DNA of 64,000 nucleotides from Sphingomonadales bacterium (GTDB lineage Bacteria; Pseudomonadota; Alphaproteobacteria; SMXS01): positions 62,001 through 126,000 of the forward strand of contig JALHLV010000007.1 in NCBI GenBank assembly GCA_022844405.1. The letters are read 5' to 3'. A program made the translations under genes and the position numbers. The first letter of the stretch is position 1, and each line of letters begins with the position of its first letter. The notes under the pieces are model-generated. The model worked only from the letters and a program-made list of their open reading frames with translations. It was not told the DNA's origin and ran no database searches. This document shows, piece after piece, positions 6,584 to 17,679 of this stretch.

Positions 6584-8149
6584 ATGCTCATCGACGGCAT
6601 CAACGTGCTCGCCGACATTCCCCGCCATTGGGCGCGCCTCCGGCCGGAGCGGGCGTGCACCATCTTCGAGGAGCGGATCACGTCCTGGTCCGGCTTCGAC
6701 CTCCAGTGCACCCGCGTCGCCAACGGGCTGATCGCTGACGGCGTCGGGCCGCGGGGACGAATCGGCTATCTGGGCAAGAATTCGGACCTGTATTTCCAGC
6801 TGCTGTTCGGCTCGGCCAAGGCGAATGTGGTGATGGTCGCCATCAATTCCCGGCTGGCGGCGCCCGAGATCGAATACATCATCGGCGACGCCCAGGCGGA
6901 AATCCTGTTCGTGGAGCCGGAATTCCTAGGCCTGGTGCACCGGATCGCGTCGCCGGGCGTGCGCAAGGTCGTCGTCATGGGCGAGCCGCGGGACGGCCTC
7001 GAGGACTATGACGGGTGGCGCGACCGGCAACTGGACGCCGATCCCAGGGTGCCGTCCGTGCCCGAGGACGTCTGCGTCCAGCTCTATACCTCCGGCACCA
7101 CCGGCCTCCCCAAGGGCGTCCAGATCATGCATCTGGGCCTGATCGTCCAGCGGCTGGGCTATCTGGCCACCGGCGAGGCCTGGGCGCAGTGGCAGGACGG
7201 CGAGGTGGCCATGATCCCCATGCCGGTGTTCCATGTGGGCGGGACGGGCTGGGGCTTCCAGGGCTTCTATCACGGCGCCACGCAGGTGATCCTCGCCCAG
7301 GCGGAAGCCGGAAAAATCATCGAGGCGATCCAGAAGCACAAGGTGACCAACGTGTTCGTGGTGCCGGCCGTCCTGCGCACCATGCTGCAGCACGAAGCGG
7401 CGGCCACCGCCGATTTCTCTCACGTCCGCGTGGTGCATTACGGCGCCTCGCCGATCCCCGAGGACGTGCTGGTGCGCGCCATGGCCACCTTCAACTGCCC
7501 CTTCGTGCAGCGTTACGGCATGACCGAGGCGAGCGGCACGATCACCTACCTGCCGCCGGAGCAGCACGTCGCCGGTTCGCCGCGGCTGCGCAGCTGCGGC
7601 ATCCCGTTTCCGGGCTCGCAGGTGATCATCGGCGATGAGAACGATGCCGAGCTGCCGCGCGGGCAGGTGGGCGAGATCCTGATCAAGGCGCCGTGGCTGA
7701 TGAAGGGCTACTGGAACATGCCCGAGGCGACGGCGCAGGCCATGCGCAATGGCTGGTACCATTCCGGCGACGCCGGCTACATGGACGGCGAGGGCTTCAT
7801 CTACATCCACGACCGGGTGAAGGACATGATCGTCTCGGGCGGCGAGAACATCTATCCGGCCGAGGTGGAGAGCGCCCTGTCGCACCATCCGGCGATCTCC
7901 GACGTGGCGGTGATCGGCGTGCCCAGCGAGCGCTGGGGCGAGGAGGTGAAGGCCGTCGTGGTGCTGGAGCCGGGCGCGTCGCTGACCGAGCAGGAACTCA
8001 TCGCCTTCGCCCGCACCCGCATCGGCGGCTACAAGGTCCCCAAATCGGTCGACTTCATCGACGTGCTGCCGCGCAACCCCTCCGGCAAGCTGCTGAAGAA
8101 GGAGCTGCGGGAACCGTATTGGGCGGGGCATGTGCGGCGGGTGGGTTAA
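6584..8149 (+). CDS. AMP-binding acyl-CoA ligase (second copy)
   Basis: 521-residue paralog of the ligase at 3083, with the same layout: YTSGTTGLPKG P-loop near residue 170, YGMTEA, YHSGDAGYMDGEG hinge and the NPSGKLLKKELREPYW C-terminal lysine motif. Start is the ATG at 6584, preceded by CAGGAAC; the longer frame from 6494 adds a non-homologous leader. The two copies differ around the acyl-pocket segment before YGMTE (LYGAS against HYGAS, and nearby positions), hinting at related but not identical acids. It converges on the RidA-like gene with a 4-nt gap. Confidence 0.93.
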   Translation: MLIDGINVLADIPRHWARLRPERACTIFEERITSWSGFDLQCTRVANGLIADGVGPRGRIGYLGKNSDLYFQLLFGSAKANVVMVAINSRLAAPEIEYIIGDAQAEILFVEPEFLGLVHRIASPGVRKVVVMGEPRDGLEDYDGWRDRQLDADPRVPSVPEDVCVQLYTSGTTGLPKGVQIMHLGLIVQRLGYLATGEAWAQWQDGEVAMIPMPVFHVGGTGWGFQGFYHGATQVILAQAEAGKIIEAIQKHKVTNVFVVPAVLRTMLQHEAAATADFSHVRVVHYGASPIPEDVLVRAMATFNCPFVQRYGMTEASGTITYLPPEQHVAGSPRLRSCGIPFPGSQVIIGDENDAELPRGQVGEILIKAPWLMKGYWNMPEATAQAMRNGWYHSGDAGYMDGEGFIYIHDRVKDMIVSGGENIYPAEVESALSHHPAISDVAVIGVPSERWGEEVKAVVVLEPGASLTEQELIAFARTRIGGYKVPKSVDFIDVLPRNPSGKLLKKELREPYWAGHVRRVG

Positions 8150-8153
8150 CTCC

Positions 8154-8543
8154 CTAGTTGTAAGCCGCCGTCGCCTTGATCTCGACCGCGATTCCTGGCA
8201 GCGCCAGCTCGACCACGCCGATGGCGGTCCACGACGGGAACGGCTCGGTGATGTATCTGGCCTTCACCTTCATGAATGTCCCCAGGTGCGACTGCAGGCC
8301 CACATGGAAGGTGTGCAGGTCGACGATGTTGTCGAACGACAGGCCGGCCTCGTGCAGGATCTGGCCGATCAGGTCGAAGGCGCGGGCGAACTGCGCCTCC
8401 AGGTCGGGGATGGCGTTGCCGTCCGGGCCGACGCCGATCTGGCCCGACAGGATCAGCAGGTCGCCGACGCGGGTCGCCGGCGCGAACTGGAACGCCTCGT
8501 AGCTTCCCCGCATGCTGTCGGGAATGATGGGTTTGCCGGCCAT
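8154..8543 (-). CDS. RidA/YjgF family protein lacking the usual catalytic arginine
   Basis: 129-residue YjgF/YER057c/UK114 (RidA) fold protein, normally a homotrimer. Conserved segments are DLLILSGQIG near 28-37, the I-x-D-L-x-x-F-H-V strand at 73-81 and the C-terminal LPGIAVEIKATA strand. True RidA imine deaminases have an Arg shortly after the P-x-R-S-type turn; here that stretch reads PFPSWTAIGV, with Trp where Arg is expected. It therefore probably belongs to a subgroup without 2-aminoacrylate deaminase activity. Start at 8543 rather than far upstream because MAGKPIIPD begins right after a purine-rich AGGGGAG. It diverges from the aldehyde dehydrogenase. Confidence 0.88.
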   Translation of the reverse strand: MAGKPIIPDSMRGSYEAFQFAPATRVGDLLILSGQIGVGPDGNAIPDLEAQFARAFDLIGQILHEAGLSFDNIVDLHTFHVGLQSHLGTFMKVKARYITEPFPSWTAIGVVELALPGIAVEIKATAAYN

Positions 8544-8775
8544 TGAACAATCTCCCCTGAAATTTCCATTCACGCTTGATTTTTCGTCGCCATGGCCTAG
8601 TTTGCCATGGAAACCGGCGGCCACCATAGCAAGCCGGCGAGGCGATAAATATGGAATTTGGCCTGACCGGGCCTTAGACTGCCGCGCGAGGCGGGGTGGG
8701 GAGGGAAGACCCACGCCGGCTTTTCCAGACATTGGCAGCGGGAAGCGAAGCCTTCCCCGGAACGTGGAGAAGACG

Positions 8776-10278
8776 ATGGCGGATGCAGCGCTCGAGCAGG
8801 CGGCGACCAACCCGAAGGTTGGCGCGTTTCTCGCCCAGAACCGCAAGAACCTGATCAACAACGAGTGGGTCGATGCCCGCAGCGGTGAGACCTTCGACGT
8901 CATCAACCCGGCGACCGGCGGCGTCATCGCCCGCTGCGCCGCGTCCGACAAGGCCGATGTGGACGAGGCGGTGAAGGCCGCGCGCCGCGCCTTCGAGACG
9001 CCGGACTGGGCCGCCATGCCGCCGTCCAAGCGCGCCCGACTGATCTGGAAGCTGGCCGACCTGATCGAGGCCAATCTGGAAGAGCTGGCCGAGCTGGAGA
9101 CGCTCGACAACGGCAAGCCGTTCTCGCTGTCCAAGATGGTCGACGTCATGTCGTCGGCCGAGGCGTTCCGCTACTACGCCGGCTACTGCACCAAGATCGA
9201 GGGCAAGACGGTGACGCCGTCGAACCCGTTCCAGCAGTTCCACGCCTATGTGCGCCGCGAGCCGATCGGCGTCTGCGGCCAGATCGTGCCGTGGAACTTC
9301 CCGCTGCTGATGGCGTCGTGGAAGCTGGCGCCGGCGTTGGCGACGGGCTGCACCGTGGTGCTGAAGCCCGCCGAGCAGACGCCGCTGACCGCCATCAAGC
9401 TGGGCGAGCTGATCGTCGAGGCCGGCTTCCCGGCCGGCGTCGTCAACATCGTCACCGGCTTCGGCCACACCGCCGGCGCGGCGATCTCGTCGCATCCGGA
9501 CGTGGACAAGGTCGCCTTCACCGGCTCGACCGAGGTCGGCCGGATCATCGCCGCCTCGGCCGCGCAGAGCAACCTGAAGAAGGTCACGCTGGAGCTGGGC
9601 GGCAAGTCGCCGACCATCGTCTTCGCCGACGCCGACATGAAGCGCACCGTGCCCGGCCTCGCCAACGCCGCGTTCTTCAACAGCGGCCAGGTCTGCATCG
9701 CCGCGACGCGCCTCTATGTGGAGAAGTCGGCGTTCGACAGCGTCGTCGAGGGCCTGTCGGCCGCGGCGCAGAGCTTCAAGGTCGGCCCCGGCATGGCGGC
9801 CGATACCCGCATGGGCCCGCTGGTGTCGCAGGAGCAGCACGACAAGGTGTCGTCGATGATCCAGGCCGGCCTGGACGAGGGCGCCGAGATCGCCAGCGGC
9901 GGCAAGCGGGTCGGCAATTCAGGCTACTTCATCGAGCCGACCATCCTGGTCAACACCACCCAGAACATGCGGGTGAACCGCGAGGAGATCTTCGGCCCGG
10001 TGATCACGGTGCAGCCGGTGGCCGACCTGGACGAGGTCGCGCGGCTCGCCAACGACACCCGGTACGGCCTGGCGGCCAGCATCTGGACCCGCGACATCAG
10101 CCGGGCGCACCGGCTGGCGGCGCAGATCCGCGCGGGCAGCGTCTGGATCAACTGCCACGGCGCGTCCGACATGTCGCTGCCGTTCGGCGGCTACAAGGAA
10201 TCCGGCTGGGGCCGGGAGATGGGCTTCGACGGCATCGAGGCCTATACTGAGGTGAAATCGGTGGCCGTCGCCCTCTGA
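8776..10278 (+). CDS. NAD(P)-dependent aldehyde dehydrogenase
   Basis: 500-residue class I/II-type aldehyde dehydrogenase oxidising an aldehyde to its acid. The N-terminal INNEWVDARSGETFDVINP entry strand, PWNFPLLMASWKLAPAL coenzyme-binding segment, FTGSTEVGR loop, general-base Glu273 in LELGGKSP and nucleophile Cys307 in FNSGQVCIAATR are all present. Start is the ATG at 8776, behind GTGGAGAAGACG; upstream in-frame codons lie in the divergent promoter region. It begins a co-directional run with the enoyl-CoA hydratase (38-nt gap) and the Rieske oxygenases, so it probably oxidises an aldehyde made in that pathway. Confidence 0.95.
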   Translation: MADAALEQAATNPKVGAFLAQNRKNLINNEWVDARSGETFDVINPATGGVIARCAASDKADVDEAVKAARRAFETPDWAAMPPSKRARLIWKLADLIEANLEELAELETLDNGKPFSLSKMVDVMSSAEAFRYYAGYCTKIEGKTVTPSNPFQQFHAYVRREPIGVCGQIVPWNFPLLMASWKLAPALATGCTVVLKPAEQTPLTAIKLGELIVEAGFPAGVVNIVTGFGHTAGAAISSHPDVDKVAFTGSTEVGRIIAASAAQSNLKKVTLELGGKSPTIVFADADMKRTVPGLANAAFFNSGQVCIAATRLYVEKSAFDSVVEGLSAAAQSFKVGPGMAADTRMGPLVSQEQHDKVSSMIQAGLDEGAEIASGGKRVGNSGYFIEPTILVNTTQNMRVNREEIFGPVITVQPVADLDEVARLANDTRYGLAASIWTRDISRAHRLAAQIRAGSVWINCHGASDMSLPFGGYKESGWGREMGFDGIEAYTEVKSVAVAL

Positions 10279-11207: not shown

Positions 11208-12542
11208 ATGGTTGCGATTACGCGGGTCAAGGAAAGCATCTACACGCCGGCGGAAAAGGCGCCCGAGCCCAACCTGGGGTCGGAGATCATTCCGAAGGAG
11301 CGCTATATCTCCAAGGAATTCATGCAGCTCGAATGGGACCGCATGTGGAGCAAGGTCTGGCTGATCGGCTGCCGCGAGCAGGAGATCCCCGAAACCGGTG
11401 ACTACATCACCACCGACATCGGTCCGGAGTCGCTGCTGATCGTGCGCGGCGAGGACGGCAAGGCGCGGACCTTCTACAATGTCTGCAACCATCGCGGCAA
11501 CCAGGTGAAGTTCGACGAGTGCGGCAATTCCCGCACCCTGCAGTGCGCCTATCACTTCTGGGAATACGACCTGACCGGCCGCCTGATCAACGTGCCCGAC
11601 GAGCAGGATTTCACCCAGGGCTGCCCGAAGGACCAGCTCAGCCTGAAGGCGGTCAAGACCGAGACCTGGGGCGGCTTTGTCTGGTTCAACCTGAACCCGG
11701 ACGCCGAGCCGCTTGCCGAATACCTGGGCGTAATCCCGCAGCACCTCGATCCGTACCACTTCGAGAACATGTCGATGGTGATGAACGTCACCGTCGACTG
11801 GGACTGCAACTGGAAGACGTCGGTGGATGCGTTCAACGAGGTCTATCACGTCCAGTGCATCCATCCAGAGCTGTCCTACACGATCGACGACGTGGACATC
11901 CAGATCGACCTGTACGAGCGCCACAACCGCTACCTGGTGCCGTTCAAGACCTATAGCCCGCGCCTCAATGAGGACCTGCAGGAAGTGCCGGAAGCGCTCG
12001 CCGACGAGCTGCGCGCCATCGGCATGAACCCGGACGAGTTCGAGGGCCGGGTGCCGGAAATCCGCCGCGCCGTTCAGGAATACAAGCGCGAGAACGGCGA
12101 CAAGCTCGGCATCGACTATTCCCAGTTCAACGACGACCAGCTGTCGGACGACTACCACTACATGATCTTCCCGAACATCACGATGAACGTGATGGCCGAG
12201 TCCATGATGATGTTCCGGCAGCGCCCGCACGAGTCCGACCCGAACAAGATGTACTACGATGTCACCATGTATGTGACCGTGCCGAAGACCGGTGAAGCGA
12301 TTGCCGCCGGTTTCATGGGCGCCGCGGGGCCGCCGCTGCCGGACCACGAGCATGTCAAGCACGGCGAGCGGTCGCTGGGCCTGGTGCTCGACCAGGATTC
12401 GGTCAACCTGCCGCATGTGCAGAGGGGCATGAATTCGGTGGCCTACAAGGGCCTGTGGATTTCCGGCCAGGAGCGCCGCATCCGCCACATGCACAAGACG
12501 CTGATGGACTACATCAACGGCGAATACGCCAACGACGCGTAA
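11208..12542 (+). CDS. Rieske non-heme iron oxygenase, alpha subunit (copy 1 of 3)
   Basis: 444-residue oxygenase alpha subunit. Rieske [2Fe-2S] ligands are Cys93, His95, Cys113 and His116 (C-x-H...C-x2-H). The mononuclear iron site follows NWKTSVDAFNEVYH, with His214 and His219 as ligands and probably Asp395 in LDQDSVN as the third. The residue three before His214, which relays electrons between metal centres and is Asp in most family members, is Glu211 here. No beta subunit follows, so a homotrimer is likely. Strong AAGGAG Shine-Dalgarno before the ATG. It is the first of three tandem paralogs numbered identically through these motifs, and ends at a strong terminator. Confidence 0.93.
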   Translation: MVAITRVKESIYTPAEKAPEPNLGSEIIPKERYISKEFMQLEWDRMWSKVWLIGCREQEIPETGDYITTDIGPESLLIVRGEDGKARTFYNVCNHRGNQVKFDECGNSRTLQCAYHFWEYDLTGRLINVPDEQDFTQGCPKDQLSLKAVKTETWGGFVWFNLNPDAEPLAEYLGVIPQHLDPYHFENMSMVMNVTVDWDCNWKTSVDAFNEVYHVQCIHPELSYTIDDVDIQIDLYERHNRYLVPFKTYSPRLNEDLQEVPEALADELRAIGMNPDEFEGRVPEIRRAVQEYKRENGDKLGIDYSQFNDDQLSDDYHYMIFPNITMNVMAESMMMFRQRPHESDPNKMYYDVTMYVTVPKTGEAIAAGFMGAAGPPLPDHEHVKHGERSLGLVLDQDSVNLPHVQRGMNSVAYKGLWISGQERRIRHMHKTLMDYINGEYANDA

Positions 12543-12569
12543 TCGGCCGGCTCATCTTTAGCGCATTCG

Positions 12570-12604
12570 GGCGGTCGGCCATCTGGTCGGCCGCCTGTTT
12601 TTTT
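12570..12604 (+). terminator. Rho-independent terminator after Rieske copy 1
   Basis: An 11-bp stem (12570-12580 with 12585-12595, two G-T wobbles), ATCT loop, then TG and seven T residues. This is a textbook intrinsic terminator and implies that copies 2 and 3 are at least partly transcribed from their own promoter or by read-through. Confidence 0.85.
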
Positions 12605-12642
12605 GCGACAGTGGTCATGGAACGAAACCGGGGAGACGATCC

Positions 12643-13926
12643 ATGGTCGCGATCGCGCGCATCGAAAAGCTGGGCGGCACGCCCGTCGCCAAGGCGCCCG
12701 AGCCCGACATGGGCCATGCGATCATTCCGAAGGAGCGCTACGTCTCGCCCGGGTTCATGCGGCTCGAATGGGAGCGAATGTGGACCAAGGTGTGGCTGGT
12801 GGGCTGCCGCGAGGAGGAGATTCCCGAGACCGGCGACTACATCACCACCGACATCGGCCCCGAATCGCTGCTGATCGTGCGCGGCGAGGACGGCAAGGCG
12901 CGGACCTTCTACAACGTCTGCAACCATCGCGGCAACCAGGTCAAATTCGACAAGACCGGCAACTCCCGCACGCTCCAGTGTGCCTATCATTTCTGGGAAT
13001 ACGACCTCACCGGCCGGCTGGTGAACATCCCCGACGAGCAGGACTTCACCCAGGGCTGCCCCAGGGATCAGCTCAGCCTCAAGACCGTCCGAACCGACAC
13101 CTGGGGCGGCTTCGTCTGGTTTAACCTGAACCCGGACGGCGAATCCCTGCGGGACTATCTCGGCATCATCCCGGCGCATCTCGATGCCTACGGGTTCGAG
13201 GACATGCCCATGGTGATGAACGTCACCATCGAGTGGGACTGCAACTGGAAGACGTCGGTCGACGCCTTCAACGAGGTCTACCACACTTCCTGCATCCATC
13301 CGGAGCTGACCTATCTGCACGACGACATCAACCTGCAGATCGATCTCTACGAACGGCACAGCCGTTATCTGATCCCGTTCGAGGTGCCCAGCCCGCGCCT
13401 CGGCGAACTGACCGAGGTGCCCGAGATCATCGCCGCGGATATGCGGGCCATCGGCATGGACCCGGCGCGGTTCCGGGGCAGGGTCGCCGAGATTCGCCGC
13501 GCCTTCCAGCTCCAGAAACGGGCGACCGCCGATGAGACGGGATATGACTACGGCAGGCTCGGCGACGACCAGCTGTCCGACGACTATCACTATTTCATCT
13601 TCCCCAACGTCACGATGAACATCTTCGCCGACCGGTTGCTGATGTTCCGGCAACGGCCGCATGAGAGCGATCCGGGCCGGATGTATTACGACGTCAGCAT
13701 CATGATCCGGCAGCCGCGCGGCGCGGCGCGGCCGCCGGTCCCGGACCACGAGCACATGAAGCACGGCGAGCGCTCGCTGGGCCTGGTGCTGGACCAGGAT
13801 TCCGTCAACCTGCCCCATATCCAGAAGGGCATGCGCTCGTCATCCTACAAGGGGCTGTGGATCAGCAACCAGGAGCGCCGCATCCGCCATATGCATGAAA
13901 CTCTGATGAACTATATCTCGGTATAA
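12643..13926 (+). CDS. Rieske non-heme iron oxygenase, alpha subunit (copy 2 of 3)
   Basis: 427-residue paralog of the gene at 11208, colinear with it through residue 230: Cys93, His95, Cys113 and His116 for the Rieske cluster, and Glu211, His214 and His219 in NEVYHTSCIHPEL at the catalytic iron. It differs in that segment (TSCIH instead of VQCIH) and lacks about 15 residues in the variable loop before the PDHEH segment, which makes it the shortest copy. A GGGGAGACGATCC leader precedes the ATG. It lies between the terminator of copy 1 and copy 3, with an 85-nt gap to the latter. Substrate specificity probably differs from its neighbours. Confidence 0.93.
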   Translation: MVAIARIEKLGGTPVAKAPEPDMGHAIIPKERYVSPGFMRLEWERMWTKVWLVGCREEEIPETGDYITTDIGPESLLIVRGEDGKARTFYNVCNHRGNQVKFDKTGNSRTLQCAYHFWEYDLTGRLVNIPDEQDFTQGCPRDQLSLKTVRTDTWGGFVWFNLNPDGESLRDYLGIIPAHLDAYGFEDMPMVMNVTIEWDCNWKTSVDAFNEVYHTSCIHPELTYLHDDINLQIDLYERHSRYLIPFEVPSPRLGELTEVPEIIAADMRAIGMDPARFRGRVAEIRRAFQLQKRATADETGYDYGRLGDDQLSDDYHYFIFPNVTMNIFADRLLMFRQRPHESDPGRMYYDVSIMIRQPRGAARPPVPDHEHMKHGERSLGLVLDQDSVNLPHIQKGMRSSSYKGLWISNQERRIRHMHETLMNYISV

Positions 13927-14011
13927 AAAAGGTCGTGTATGAATGGTGTTGCCTCATGTCGTCCTTGACGGCAAAAAGGGGCGCACGCCAGCAAGCATTT
14001 GGAGCTTTTGA

Positions 14012-15316
14012 ATGGTCGCGGTCATCAGGGTGAAGGAAAGCACGGGAACGCCGGCGGAAAAGGCGCCCGAGCCCAACCTCGGCAACGAGATCATTCCGAA
14101 GGAACGCTATGTCTCCCGGGAGTTCATGCAGCTCGAGTGGGAGCGCATGTGGACCAAGACCTGGCTGATCGGCTGCCGCGAGGAGGAAATCCCCGACGTC
14201 GGCGACTACATCACCACCGAGATCGGCCCGGAATCGCTGCTGATCGTGCGCGGCGAGGACGGCGTGCCGCGGACGTTCTACAACGTCTGCAACCACCGCG
14301 GCAACCAGGTCAAGTTCGACAAGATGGGCAACTCGCGCACGCTCCAGTGCGCCTACCACTTCTGGGAATACGACCTGACCGGCCGGCTGATCAACGTCCC
14401 CGACGAACAGGACTTCACCCAGGGCTGCCCCAAGGACCAGCTTAGCCTGAAAGCGATCAAGACCGGCACCTGGGGCGGCTTCGTCTGGTTCAACCTGAAC
14501 CCCGACGCCGAGCCGCTGCTCGATTATCTCAACATCATCCCCGAGCACCTCGACCCGTATCATTTCGAGAAGATGGCGATGGTGATGAACGTCACCATCA
14601 ACTGGGACTGCAACTGGAAGACCTCGGTCGACGCGTTCAACGAGGTCTATCACGTCCAGTGCATCCACCCGGAGCTGCTCTACGACAATGACGACGTCGA
14701 CGTGCAGATCGATCTCTACGAAAAGCACAACCGCTACCTGGTGCCGTTCCACACCTACAGCCCGCGCCTCGGCGAGGAGCTGGACGAGGTGCCGGAGATC
14801 ATCGCCAGCAGGATGACCGCTCTGGGCATGAACCCCGAGGAGTTCCGCGGCCGGGTTCCCGAGGCGCGCCGCGCCATCCAGGTGTTCAAGCGCGAGAACC
14901 AGGACAAGCTGGGCGTCGACTATTCCGAGCTGAACGACGACCAGCTCACCGACGACTACCACTACAACATCTTCCCGAACCTGACGCTGAACACCTTCGC
15001 CGACCGGATGATGATGTTCCGCCAGCGGCCGCACGAGACCGACCCGAACAAGATGTATTACGACGTCTGGATGTTCGCGCGGATCAAGCAGGGCCAGAAG
15101 CGCCCGCCGCTGCCTGACCATGAGCACGTCAACCACGGCGAGCGCTCGCTGGGCCTGGTGCTCGACCAGGACTCGGTCAACCTGCCGCATGTGCAGCGGG
15201 GCAACAACTCGTCGGCTTTCAGGGGCCTGTGGATTTCCCATCAGGAGCGCCGCATCCGCCACATGCACAGGACGCTGATGGGCTATATAAACGGCGACAC
15301 CGCCAACGACGCATAA
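14012..15316 (+). CDS. Rieske non-heme iron oxygenase, alpha subunit (copy 3 of 3)
   Basis: 434-residue third paralog, closest by eye to copy 1 (same VQCIHPEL catalytic segment, same C-terminal INGD/EYANDA-type ending). Rieske ligands Cys93, His95, Cys113 and His116 and the Glu211, His214, His219 set are conserved. The stop is only 8 nt before the Rieske ferredoxin start, so this copy is the one physically coupled to an electron donor. The start follows GGAGCTTTTGA. All three paralogs keep a complete set of metal ligands, so none looks like a decaying copy. Confidence 0.93.
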   Translation: MVAVIRVKESTGTPAEKAPEPNLGNEIIPKERYVSREFMQLEWERMWTKTWLIGCREEEIPDVGDYITTEIGPESLLIVRGEDGVPRTFYNVCNHRGNQVKFDKMGNSRTLQCAYHFWEYDLTGRLINVPDEQDFTQGCPKDQLSLKAIKTGTWGGFVWFNLNPDAEPLLDYLNIIPEHLDPYHFEKMAMVMNVTINWDCNWKTSVDAFNEVYHVQCIHPELLYDNDDVDVQIDLYEKHNRYLVPFHTYSPRLGEELDEVPEIIASRMTALGMNPEEFRGRVPEARRAIQVFKRENQDKLGVDYSELNDDQLTDDYHYNIFPNLTLNTFADRMMMFRQRPHETDPNKMYYDVWMFARIKQGQKRPPLPDHEHVNHGERSLGLVLDQDSVNLPHVQRGNNSSAFRGLWISHQERRIRHMHRTLMGYINGDTANDA

Positions 15317-15324
15317 GGCAGACG

Positions 15325-15711
15325 ATGACCGCACCAGCCGCCGACATTCCGTTCCGGTTCGTGGCCAAGACCACGGACGTGGAGCCGGGCAGGACCAAAT
15401 GCGTTCCGCTGGAAGGCCGCAATGTGCTGGTCATCCACATGCCCAATGGCGGGTTCAAGGCCATCGAGAACCAGTGCTCGCACGAGAAGAAGTCCATGGA
15501 AGGCGGCCGCATCCGCGCCGGCAAGATCGTCTGCCCGCACCACGGCGCCAATTTCGACCTGGAAACCGGCAAGGCCGTGAGCGCGCCGGCGGTGCTGCCG
15601 ATCACCGTCTATCCGGTGAAGGTCGAGGGCGAGGACGTGCTGGTACAGTTGATCGAGCCGCCGAAGAAGCCGAAGAACCCCTTCGCCATTCCGGGCGTCC
15701 AGGGTTTCTGA
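15325..15711 (+). CDS. Rieske-type [2Fe-2S] ferredoxin
   Basis: 128-residue small Rieske ferredoxin, the likely electron donor to the preceding oxygenases. Cluster ligands are Cys51 and His53 in NQCSHEKKSMEGG and Cys70 and His73 in CPHHGANFDLETG. Start is the ATG at 15325, 8 nt after the oxygenase stop and preceded by AAGGCAGACG; the longer frame upstream overlaps the oxygenase and has no homology. No ferredoxin reductase lies in the window, so electrons must come from a reductase encoded elsewhere. A NirD-like assimilatory role is less likely given the context. Confidence 0.92.
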   Translation: MTAPAADIPFRFVAKTTDVEPGRTKCVPLEGRNVLVIHMPNGGFKAIENQCSHEKKSMEGGRIRAGKIVCPHHGANFDLETGKAVSAPAVLPITVYPVKVEGEDVLVQLIEPPKKPKNPFAIPGVQGF

Positions 15712-15755: not shown

Positions 15756-16511
15756 ATGGCGAGCAAGCCGGTCAGATTCCATCTGGTGGCGTCGGGCAAG
15801 TACCACGACATCAATTTCGCGCGGCTGGAGTTGCTCAAGCTGCTGGCCGAGGACGAGCGCTATCTGGCGAGCGTCTCGGTGGATTACGCCGACACCGCGT
15901 CCATCGCCGCCTGCGACGTGCTGATCACCTACACCTGCGACGTCCAGCCCACCGCCGGCCAGACCGAGGCGCTGCACCAGTTCCTCTCAAAGGGCGGCAA
16001 GTGGTTCGCGCTGCACGGCACCAACTCGGTGCTGCGCTTCGTCGAGGGCGGCGTGGCGACGCCGCGCGAGGCGCCGCGCTTCATGGAGATGATCGGCAGC
16101 CAGTTCATCGCCCATCCGCCGCTGCAGGACTTCCAGGTCACGGTCACGCCGGGCGAGGAGAACCATCCGCTGGTGAAAGGCATCGACAGCTTCACCATCA
16201 ATGACGAGATCTACTGCGCCGAGTATTACGGCGACAACCGCGTGCTGCTGGAAACCCACTGGCACGGACGCTGCGACGGCTTCATCGAGGCCGACTGGAC
16301 CGGCGGCACCGGCCGCCACTACATGCTCTACACCAAGAACTACGGCGCCGGCGAGGTGGTGTACTGCGCCCTCGGCCACTGCCGCGGCAAGTTCGACATG
16401 ATCCCGATCATGGACGAATGGCCCACCGTCGACCGCTGCGCCTGGGACCAGCCGGTGTTCTACGAGATTTTGCGGCGCGGGATTCGGTATTGCGCGGGGG
16501 AGCTGGCGTAA
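15756..16511 (+). CDS. ThuA-like domain protein
   Basis: 251-residue protein with the class I glutamine-amidotransferase-like fold of the ThuA (trehalose utilisation) family. Visible are the ITYTCDVQPTAGQTEALHQFLSKGGKWFALHG core (nucleotides about 15925-16020) and a later HPLVKGIDSFTINDEIY segment typical of the family. ThuA-like proteins are mostly of unknown activity; some are involved in sugar oxidation. A GGGGAGACGGGGA leader precedes the ATG. It is the last gene of the Rieske run (44 nt after the ferredoxin), so here a role linked to the oxygenase pathway seems more likely than trehalose metabolism, but this is inference. Confidence 0.85.
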   Translation: MASKPVRFHLVASGKYHDINFARLELLKLLAEDERYLASVSVDYADTASIAACDVLITYTCDVQPTAGQTEALHQFLSKGGKWFALHGTNSVLRFVEGGVATPREAPRFMEMIGSQFIAHPPLQDFQVTVTPGEENHPLVKGIDSFTINDEIYCAEYYGDNRVLLETHWHGRCDGFIEADWTGGTGRHYMLYTKNYGAGEVVYCALGHCRGKFDMIPIMDEWPTVDRCAWDQPVFYEILRRGIRYCAGELA

Positions 16512-16645: not shown

Positions 16646-17011
16646 TTACCCCGCCATCTGGCGCTGGAAATCCCCCAGGTCGAAGTAATCCTTCCACTCG
16701 TAGATCTCGCCGTTCCTGATCCGGAAGATGCCCATCAGCGGGATGGCGACTTTCTTTCCGCCCATGGTCATGCGGTCGACCCGTTCGGTCATCACCACCT
16801 CGCCGTTCTCGGCGATGGCGAGCAGTTCCCAGTTCACGTCGGTCAGCGGGCCCATCGCCTTCAGCATGGCGCGGGACGCCTCGCGGCCCTTGACCGGCGT
16901 CATCGGGATATTGTGGTAGAAGATGTCCTCGGCCATCATGTCGCACGCCTTGTCGATGTCGTTCTCGTTCCAGGCGGCGATGAAGTCCCTGACGATCTGC
17001 GTGTTGCTCAC
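16646..17011 (-). CDS. Limonene-1,2-epoxide hydrolase-like (NTF2-fold) protein
   Basis: 121-residue SnoaL/NTF2-fold protein resembling limonene-1,2-epoxide hydrolase. The residues that position water in that enzyme have likely counterparts here: Tyr32 and Asn34 in FYHNIP, Arg78 and Asp80 in ERVD, and Asp108 or Asp111 in KDYFD. The start was set at the GTG at 17011, which has GGGGAGGAC five bases upstream, instead of the ATG at 17032, which has no ribosome site. A role in opening an epoxide made by one of the local oxygenases is plausible. It might also be a generic NTF2-like hydrolase or isomerase. Confidence 0.82.
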   Translation of the reverse strand: MSNTQIVRDFIAAWNENDIDKACDMMAEDIFYHNIPMTPVKGREASRAMLKAMGPLTDVNWELLAIAENGEVVMTERVDRMTMGGKKVAIPLMGIFRIRNGEIYEWKDYFDLGDFQRQMAG

Positions 17012-17106
17012 GGCGTCCTCCCCGAATTGCATTGTGGCGTATTTTTAGCATATGTTCGTTGAGGCCAAGTTTGAAAATTTCGTTCAATCGTCAGGGGAAA
17101 CGGGAC

Positions 17107-17679
17107 ATGACCAATACGCTGATGAACCGGGTGCCGCGCGAGCAATTGTCGCCCGAGCAGCAGGCCGGCTGGGATCATTCCAAGGCGATCTGCGAGGACA
17201 CCACCATCCTCGAGGTGTTCGCCAACTCGCCCAAGGCGTCGAAGATGTTCGGGCAGCACTTCTACAAGGAGCTGTTCTTCGACGGCGACGTGCCGCGCCG
17301 CTACAAGGAGCTGGTGCGCTACCGCCTGTCGCTGATCCATGGCTGCCATTACTGCAACCTGAACAACCGCGCCTCGTCGAAGGAAGCCGGCCTGACCGAG
17401 GCCGAGCTGGACGCCATGGAGGATTTCGAGAACGGCCCGTTCTCGGGCGCCGACAAGGCCGCCATCGCGCTGGCCGAGCAACTCGCGCTCACCAACATGG
17501 GCGGCTCGCTGACCCCGGCGCTGTACGCGCGCCTGAAGCAGCACTTCACCGACGGCGACATCGTCGAGCTGGCCATGGTCGGCGCCATCCTCGGCGGCAT
17601 GAACAAGATGGCGTTCGTGCTCGACCTGGTCGCCAAGGAGGAATACTGCCCCTTCGTGCCCCAGCGCGCGGCCGAGTAA
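17107..17679 (+). CDS. Carboxymuconolactone decarboxylase/AhpD-like family protein
   Basis: 190-residue all-helical protein with the AhpD-type redox motif: Cys80-x-x-Cys83 in SLIHGCHYCNLNN, preceded by conserved KELVRYRLS. Such proteins are peroxidase-like disulfide reductases or, without the cysteines, true decarboxylases; the CxxC favours the redox type. Start at the ATG at 17107 behind AGGGGAAACGGGAC; upstream in-frame starts overlap the divergent promoter. It diverges from the epoxide-hydrolase-like gene with 95 nt between them, and may protect against peroxides formed by uncoupled oxygenases (inference). Confidence 0.87.
   Translation: MTNTLMNRVPREQLSPEQQAGWDHSKAICEDTTILEVFANSPKASKMFGQHFYKELFFDGDVPRRYKELVRYRLSLIHGCHYCNLNNRASSKEAGLTEAELDAMEDFENGPFSGADKAAIALAEQLALTNMGGSLTPALYARLKQHFTDGDIVELAMVGAILGGMNKMAFVLDLVAKEEYCPFVPQRAAE

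Follow-up and report, generated by a model that had tools for sequence, protein, structure and literature searches.

The window analysed here is a stretch of 64,000 nucleotides from a Sphingomonadales bacterium (positions 62001-126000 of contig C7 of its genome, G000). It carries a tandem array of three Rieske oxygenase alpha subunits, RO1, RO2 and RO3, followed by one Rieske-type ferredoxin. Comparison of these genes with their orthologs and paralogs suggests domain-limited concerted evolution, in which the Rieske halves of the paralogs are homogenised and the catalytic halves diverge. The principal features, in window coordinates, are as follows.

11208..12542, + strand: RO1, Rieske oxygenase alpha subunit, 444 aa; PF00355 and PF00848 above cut-off; ortholog clade from five genomes of the same genus (g1)
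11352..11711, + strand: codons 49-168 of RO1, the Rieske domain and putatively homogenised region (equivalent codons in RO2 and RO3)
12643..13926, + strand: RO2, Rieske oxygenase alpha subunit, 427 aa; PF00355 and PF00848 above cut-off; evolves faster than RO1 and RO3
14012..15316, + strand: RO3, Rieske oxygenase alpha subunit, 434 aa; PF00355 and PF00848 above cut-off
15325..15711, + strand: Rieske-type ferredoxin, 128 aa, ATG at 15325; PF00355

The preliminary description of this locus reported three tandem alpha subunits and a ferredoxin without an adjoining beta subunit or reductase, and the reading frames and Pfam matches bear this out: neither a beta subunit nor an oxygenase reductase is present among the 21 window proteins scanned with Pfam. 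Its account of co-linear, undecayed copies holds as well. The three frames are intact, and Cys93, His95, Cys113, His116, His214 and His219 are invariant across RO1-3, as is Asp397, the likely third iron ligand, which had not been listed. At the protein level, RO1 is 74% identical to RO2 and 81% identical to RO3. All three have the defining features of Rieske non-heme iron oxygenase alpha subunits (CXH...CXXH motif, 2-His-1-carboxylate site, PF00355 and PF00848). The possibility that RO2 is a decaying copy was rejected: it is intact and keeps all ligands, and its ratio of nonsynonymous to synonymous divergence (dN/dS about 0.20, with 0.09-0.17 for RO1 and RO3) indicates a faster-evolving yet still constrained gene.

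The best reading of RO1-3 is as alpha-only Rieske oxygenases of a CntA-like kind. Glu211 aligns with the bridging Glu of CntA (Glu205 in the numbering of PMC7948474) and is invariant in 53 sequences. Phe209 lies at the position of CntA Tyr203; Phe is found there in 39 of 44 oxygenases of the same genome, so it is not diagnostic. Across the alignment of those 44 alpha proteins, the six Cys/His ligands and Asp397 are kept in every one, and a Glu occupies the bridging position in 41. The top structural match of an AlphaFold2 single-chain model (mean pLDDT 85.2) is CntA (Z 32.2, root-mean-square deviation 2.9, 330 residues), and profile search together with fold comparison places CntA nearest to the RO1-3 family. 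RO1-3 are not GbcA equivalogs, scoring 147.6, 134.0 and 142.8 bits against NF058607 with its 670-bit cut-off.

Relatives and the syntenic locus

The bacterial family to which G000 belongs (f1) is represented here by ten genomes, G000 included, in three genera (g1, g2 and g3); seven genomes are of g1. Conservation of the three-copy cluster is partial. Three copies are found at the syntenic locus in four of the seven g1 genomes (G000, G001, G003 and G005), two in the g1 genome G002 (RO1 and RO3, with RO2 lacking), two in G007 (g2), and one each in G008 and G009 (g3). The contig of G006 starts inside RO2 and continues into RO3, and G004 is too fragmented for a copy count. A ferredoxin and then a ThuA-like gene follow the oxygenase gene or genes in all nine loci. 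Within the genus, the orthologs are not scattered: RO1 and RO3, and RO2 where present, are linked wherever contigs allow. Stepwise expansion at a single conserved catabolic locus is the probable origin of the array, growth being the presumed direction of change.

A protein tree of 71 rows places RO1, RO2 and RO3 in separate, supported ortholog clades that span several species of the genus. Four further clades consist of dispersed paralogs (P_C7, P_C14, P_C2 and P_C18), which brings the paralog lines to seven; two short G004 fragments (169 and 198 aa) are in no tree. The proposal of triplication followed by substrate divergence survives in part. Divergence of the catalytic domains of three intact copies is evident; simple local triplication was rejected, since orthologs of each individual window copy occur in several species, the locus holds one, two or three copies, and the same radiation includes four more clades made up of dispersed copies. 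RO1-3 are members of a larger, partly dispersed paralog family. Relations between the seven clades are mostly unresolved in the protein tree, which Rieske-domain recombination may explain. Dating the duplications by synonymous divergence (dS) was abandoned, as dS between the window copies (0.45-0.66) is barely above that between orthologs (0.29-0.61); saturation, codon bias or conversion could each account for this near-equality.

The closest relatives outside f1 (best 80 of 130 matches) are 51-59% identical over the best segment and come from Proteobacteria and Chloroflexota; Chloroflexota other than the SAR202 group are among the closest non-f1 relatives listed, with 54-59% identity over the best segment. 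Two records, CAMDTB01 and CALQFM02 (loci L061 and L063), seem to be f1 genomes misfiled as Rhizobium sp. Q54 and Candidatus Kuenenia stuttgartiensis. Another multi-oxygenase cluster occurs at loci L163 and L184 (G001 C49 and G004 C59), with a P_C14-type copy and three distant ones that are 37-39% identical to RO1.

Probable separate histories of the Rieske and catalytic domains

The two domains of the RO1-3 family give conflicting phylogenies. The main set comprises 37 of 40 sequences, from seven clades and six genomes (two partial P_C18 copies, G001 C68 and G003 C32, and one P_C14 copy, G004 C59, were left out); the run-length test and domain trees use 36 sequences, G006 RO2 being cut by a contig edge and also left out. 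Identity among the window copies is 86-91% in the Rieske part (codons 49-168) and 70-76% in the catalytic part, and identity between G000 and G005 orthologs is 89-94% and 75-95%, respectively; the Rieske parts are thus about as similar between paralogs as between orthologs. In both catalytic stretches, 37 of 37 sequences have an ortholog as their nearest DNA neighbour, as do 32 of 36 in codons 1-48; in the Rieske domain only 20 of 37 do, and the remainder have same-genome paralogs (13) or other sequences (4) as nearest neighbours. With all 40 sequences, orthologs are nearest in 40/40 for the catalytic domain versus 20/40 for the Rieske domain (14 same-genome, 6 others). All seven clades are recovered by the catalytic DNA tree, and one, P_C14, by the Rieske DNA tree. 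When clades were imposed as constraints on the Rieske DNA, approximately unbiased (AU) tests rejected P_C18 (0.0027), P_C7 (0.022) and RO3 (0.025).

The contrast extends to silent sites. The difference between same-genome paralogs minus that between orthologs is -0.003 in the Rieske part (confidence interval -0.015 to 0.008) and +0.046 in the catalytic part (0.033 to 0.059). Same-genome paralogs are therefore at least as similar as orthologs at silent sites within a bounded region, a pattern expected of concerted evolution by gene conversion. With genome labels permuted, the difference-in-differences between the domains has p 0.004 at silent sites and 0/2000 at all sites for 37 sequences, and p 0.0055 and 0/2000 for 40. 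When all sites are counted and labels are permuted within clades, the closest non-orthologous sequence is from the same genome in 22 of 37 cases for the Rieske domain (permuted mean 6.1) and in 14 of 37 for the catalytic domain. None of the clade-diagnostic residues lies in the Rieske domain (0/20 for RO1-3, 0/17 for the seven clades); 19 of the 20 that distinguish RO1-3 are in the catalytic domain. Individual pairs show the same division: for RO1 and the P_C7 copy, identity is 92.5% over the Rieske part and 81.6% over the catalytic part, and for RO3 and P_C18 of G005, on different contigs, it is 91.9% and 77.3%.

A second oxygenase family in the same genomes gave 28 matches, from which a four-clade set of 21 and a three-clade set of 15 were drawn. 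In the three-clade set the Rieske/catalytic contrast is stronger than in the RO1-3 family; one of its members, G005 C8, is truncated and lacks data across most of the Rieske domain. Same-genome paralogs differ by 0.102 and orthologs by 0.130 in the Rieske part, versus 0.216 and 0.116 in the catalytic part (difference-in-differences p 0.0005, and 0.009 at silent sites), and at silent Rieske sites paralogs are again the closer (0.177 versus 0.232). Scanned in windows of 40 codons, the excess in both families peaks where the window start falls at codons 93-133, and from a start at codon 153 onward it is close to background. Among G000 oxygenase pairs of more than 50% identity, silent-site difference is lower in the Rieske part for 43 of 55 (pairs that are not independent); orthologs do not show this.

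Chloroflexota relatives were compared in five one-per-genome groups (31 of 33 sequences, L096 and L090 dropped), which replaced a single-linkage grouping that mixed several copies of one genome. In the Rieske part their same-genome paralogs differ by 0.090 and their orthologs by 0.093; for the catalytic part the values are 0.201 and 0.104, respectively (p 0.005). These relatives agree more weakly than the second family does.

Electron supply, proposed mechanism and alternatives

The 3.78 Mb genome of G000 has 50 Rieske-domain matches: 44 distinct open frames that match the alpha-subunit profile, one VanA-like protein, the window ferredoxin, three further Rieske-domain matches and one bc1-type protein. 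Counts of PF00848 candidates in 289 genomes drawn from the class, which are first-look candidates with about ten scored per genome rather than confirmed genes, give 45 for G000; the five largest listed are 62, 59, 52, 45 and 41, four of them from its own genus. Beside its roughly 45 Rieske oxygenases, G000 has 41 cytochrome P450 domain matches, a count in which one gene may be represented by several pieces. The beta-subunit domain PF00866 has four matches in this genome, all under the cut-off and none on C7, and exceeds the cut-off (summed over the frame) in one of the ten f1 genomes, G005; the array has no PF00866 gene alongside an alpha gene, as an alpha-beta aromatic ring dioxygenase would. 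The FNR-type reductase domains PF00175 and PF00970 gave no match in the G000 search, and PF00970 has one match, in G005, among eight genomes; such zero counts are not proof of absence, since the genome-wide PF00111 search missed a [2Fe-2S] ferredoxin on contig C39 that a direct scan found.

A plausible donor chain is encoded. A search of four genomes for Reductase_C, taken here to mark GR-type ferredoxin reductases, gave a single match in each; in G000 it is on C39, unlinked to the window. A [2Fe-2S] ferredoxin directly follows the Reductase_C reductase in both genomes read. The best solved relatives of the C39 reductase include putidaredoxin reductase, and those of the window ferredoxin are the ferredoxins of biphenyl, naphthalene and carbazole dioxygenases. 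On a Terrarubrum plasmid (L191, 3157-5282), an oxygenase-ThuA locus contains a group of homologs of the C39 reductase, VOC protein and [2Fe-2S] ferredoxin, which links this trio to the RO1-3 oxygenase family. A shared electron donor, suggested in the preliminary description from the single ferredoxin, is consistent with this gene content.

The mechanism that best fits these observations combines CntA-like alpha-only oxygenases, a common donor, an electron-entry domain kept uniform by gene conversion, and diversifying substrate pockets; we assign the whole a probability of about 0.6. RO1-3 would probably assemble as head-to-tail alpha3 trimers, with electrons passing from the Rieske cluster of each subunit to the catalytic iron of its neighbour by way of the bridging Glu211. 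Electrons would probably arrive from the adjacent Rieske ferredoxin, the small [2Fe-2S] ferredoxin or both, charged by the GR-type reductase on C39, which would also serve most other Rieske oxygenases of the cell. In the Rieske oxygenase family the donor docks on the Rieske domain, and uniform Rieske domains would accordingly fit a common donor. Within each genome, recombination (gene conversion) would repeatedly homogenise the Rieske-domain DNA of paralogs while the catalytic domains keep lineage-specific sequence, the presumed effect being one standard electron port with many substrate pockets. Gene content, synteny, ligands, the aligned bridging residue and the phylogenetic conflict between the domains are observed directly; the trimer, the donor, the substrates and a causal role of selection are inferred.

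Several observations weigh against this mechanism. AU tests on the Rieske DNA do not reject RO1 (0.23), RO2 (0.234) or P_C2 (0.245). The catalytic domain also has a same-genome excess, smaller but significant, with a secondary excess around codons 341-400. At silent sites, the counts of same-genome nearest non-orthologs are alike in the two domains (17/37 Rieske and 16/37 catalytic; 18 and 14 of 40 in the larger set). A GENECONV-like silent-run test, applied to the 25 top-scoring of 553 non-orthologous pairs, gave no clear global hit, and its best p value (0.0005, the floor of 2000 permutations) belongs to a run in the catalytic domain. In the second family, the nearest Rieske neighbour is a same-genome paralog for 4 of 15 sequences and an ortholog for 4. 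The Chloroflexota window profile is flat rather than peaked, so agreement there is only suggestive. Finally, the 30 PF07992 and 9 listed Fer2 matches in G000 make other donors possible.

A possible conversion tract outside the Rieske domain was seen between RO3 and P_C7 of G003, which share a run of 40 identical silent codons within codons 286-415 of the catalytic domain.

The alternative that survives best, although doubtful, is compatible with the mechanism above: RO1-3 may be successive enzymes of one pathway, each acting at a different position of one substrate. Four g1 genomes retain the close tandem arrangement with a single ferredoxin, and clade-diagnostic residues are concentrated in the catalytic domain (19/20), both in accord with such a pathway. 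The caffeine N-demethylases NdmA and NdmB, several oxygenases with one reductase, offer a precedent in the available portion of PMC4408171. However, g2 and g3 keep the locus with two copies or one, and G002 lacks RO2, so the locus is kept without all three.

Somewhat less probable, and in our view unlikely, is an explanation without gene conversion, in which stronger constraint on the Rieske domain erases the ortholog signal and same-genome similarity reflects genome-specific codon usage. Rieske amino acids are indeed more conserved (0.86-0.91 versus 0.70-0.76 in the catalytic domain for the window copies), and the smaller catalytic-domain excess, the similar silent-site counts and the weak run-length test all fit. 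Yet the silent-site contrast persists with the catalytic domain as internal control (p 0.004 and 0.009 in the two families, 0.0055 with 40 sequences), the excess in both families has the same peak and the same return to background, and the 43 of 55 non-independent G000 pairs are less different at silent Rieske sites where orthologs are not. Constraint alone, moreover, does not make same-genome paralogs closer than orthologs, as they are in the Rieske domain of the second family.

An extension of the preferred mechanism is improbable: homogenised Rieske domains would make paralogs interchangeable partners, so that electrons might pass from the Rieske domain of one copy to the catalytic iron of a different copy and the array may form mixed trimers with several specificities; conversion would be kept by selection for a universal electron port. 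On this reading, expanded families of alpha-only Rieske oxygenases, possibly in two phyla, would evolve as a shared module with many private modules. Least probable of all is adaptive protein-level co-evolution of the Rieske domain with each genome's ferredoxin without DNA exchange, for although donor co-adaptation would give a same-genome excess in the electron-entry domain and each of four genomes has one Reductase_C protein, silent sites show the excess too and no Rieske-domain amino-acid position is diagnostic of a copy.

Neighbouring genes and known systems

The genes that flank the array, listed below, include the aldehyde dehydrogenase, enoyl-CoA hydratase and ThuA-like protein named in the preliminary description, all three recovered by Pfam. 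Some searches used approximate starts (ferredoxin 15319, ThuA 15777, aldehyde dehydrogenase 8773).

6584..8149, + strand: AMP-binding (acyl-CoA ligase-like) protein; PF00501; syntenic in G001, G002, G003 and G005
8157..8561, - strand: RidA-like protein; PF01042
8776..10278, + strand: aldehyde dehydrogenase (ALDH), 500 aa, ATG at 8776; PF00171
10317..11162, + strand: enoyl-CoA hydratase (ECH) family protein; PF00378; NF006140 above its cut-off
15756..16511, + strand: ThuA-like protein, 251 aa, ATG at 15756; PF06283; in all nine f1 loci with an array or single copy in synteny (G000 included)
16646..17032, - strand: LEH/SnoaL-like small protein; PF07858, with no PF00866 match
17107..17679, + strand: carboxymuconolactone decarboxylase-like (CMD) protein; PF02627

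The ThuA-like protein has no match among solved structures by sequence up to E 0.1. Among 78 related loci, with classes assigned from titles and contigs and with flanks of varying length, ThuA-like genes occur in 22/29 proteobacterial loci outside f1, 5/16 in f1 and 0/33 in Chloroflexota. Frequent proteobacterial neighbours (SDR, ThuA, 2-oxoacid dehydrogenase E1 alpha, acyl-CoA dehydrogenase and MaoC) point to CoA-linked catabolism; for a quaternary-ammonium substrate, as used by group V oxygenases, the locus gives no clear indication. At the protein level the ALDH shares 98-100% identity with the syntenic ALDHs of four other g1 genomes, where its neighbours are mostly 81-97% identical; its nucleotide identity across those copies is 92-97%. 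Either unusually strong constraint or recent exchange could explain this conservation.

To judge from the available parts of the papers, published precedents exist for large oxygenase expansions (PMC6946804), for a single reductase shared by several oxygenases (PMC4048848) and for trimers made of alpha subunits only (PMC7948474). Gene conversion or domain-wise homogenisation of Rieske oxygenases was not found in the titles and abstract openings of the open-access papers that the searches listed. Domain-limited gene conversion would explain, in a concrete and testable way, how a bacterium with dozens of Rieske oxygenases keeps them compatible with few electron donors while they gain substrates. 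If it is correct, trees built from full-length sequences of such families blend two histories. It would also suggest a natural engineering rule, in which the Rieske domain is kept and the catalytic domain swapped.

Among known systems, the group V quaternary-ammonium oxygenases (CntA, GbcA and stachydrine demethylase) resemble RO1-3 in being alpha-only, in the bridging Glu, in an aromatic though not diagnostic residue at the Tyr203 position and in giving the best fold match. According to the available text of PMC7948474, CntA forms a head-to-tail alpha3 trimer and requires its bridging Glu205 for activity, and the absence of a beta subunit is ordinary for such alpha3 oxygenases. In contrast, sequence similarity of RO1-3 to this group is confined to the Rieske half and bridge region, RO1 is far under the GbcA equivalog cut-off (147.6 versus 670 bits), and no FNR-type reductase domain was detected in G000. 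The SAR202 group VII ring-hydroxylating dioxygenases show a comparable expansion, with 1 to 62 alpha paralogs per genome; here the expansion belongs instead to an alphaproteobacterial family with a one-two-three syntenic array, and the accessible part of PMC6946804 does not mention domain-wise homogenisation. NdmA and NdmB match the RO1-3 family weakly by profile. They are alike in that several oxygenases depend on one reductase, NdmD, which according to the part of PMC4408171 available is an FMN-containing protein with two [2Fe-2S] clusters, unlike the GR-type donor proposed here. The sphingomonad multi-oxygenase systems, as described in the available sections of PMC4048848, use one ferredoxin and one GR-type reductase for several oxygenases. 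Their oxygenases are alpha-beta pairs, six or seven per genome, whereas G000 has about 45 and no beta subunit above the cut-off; alike in both are the many scattered oxygenases, a GR-type reductase encoded away from them and a Rieske ferredoxin.

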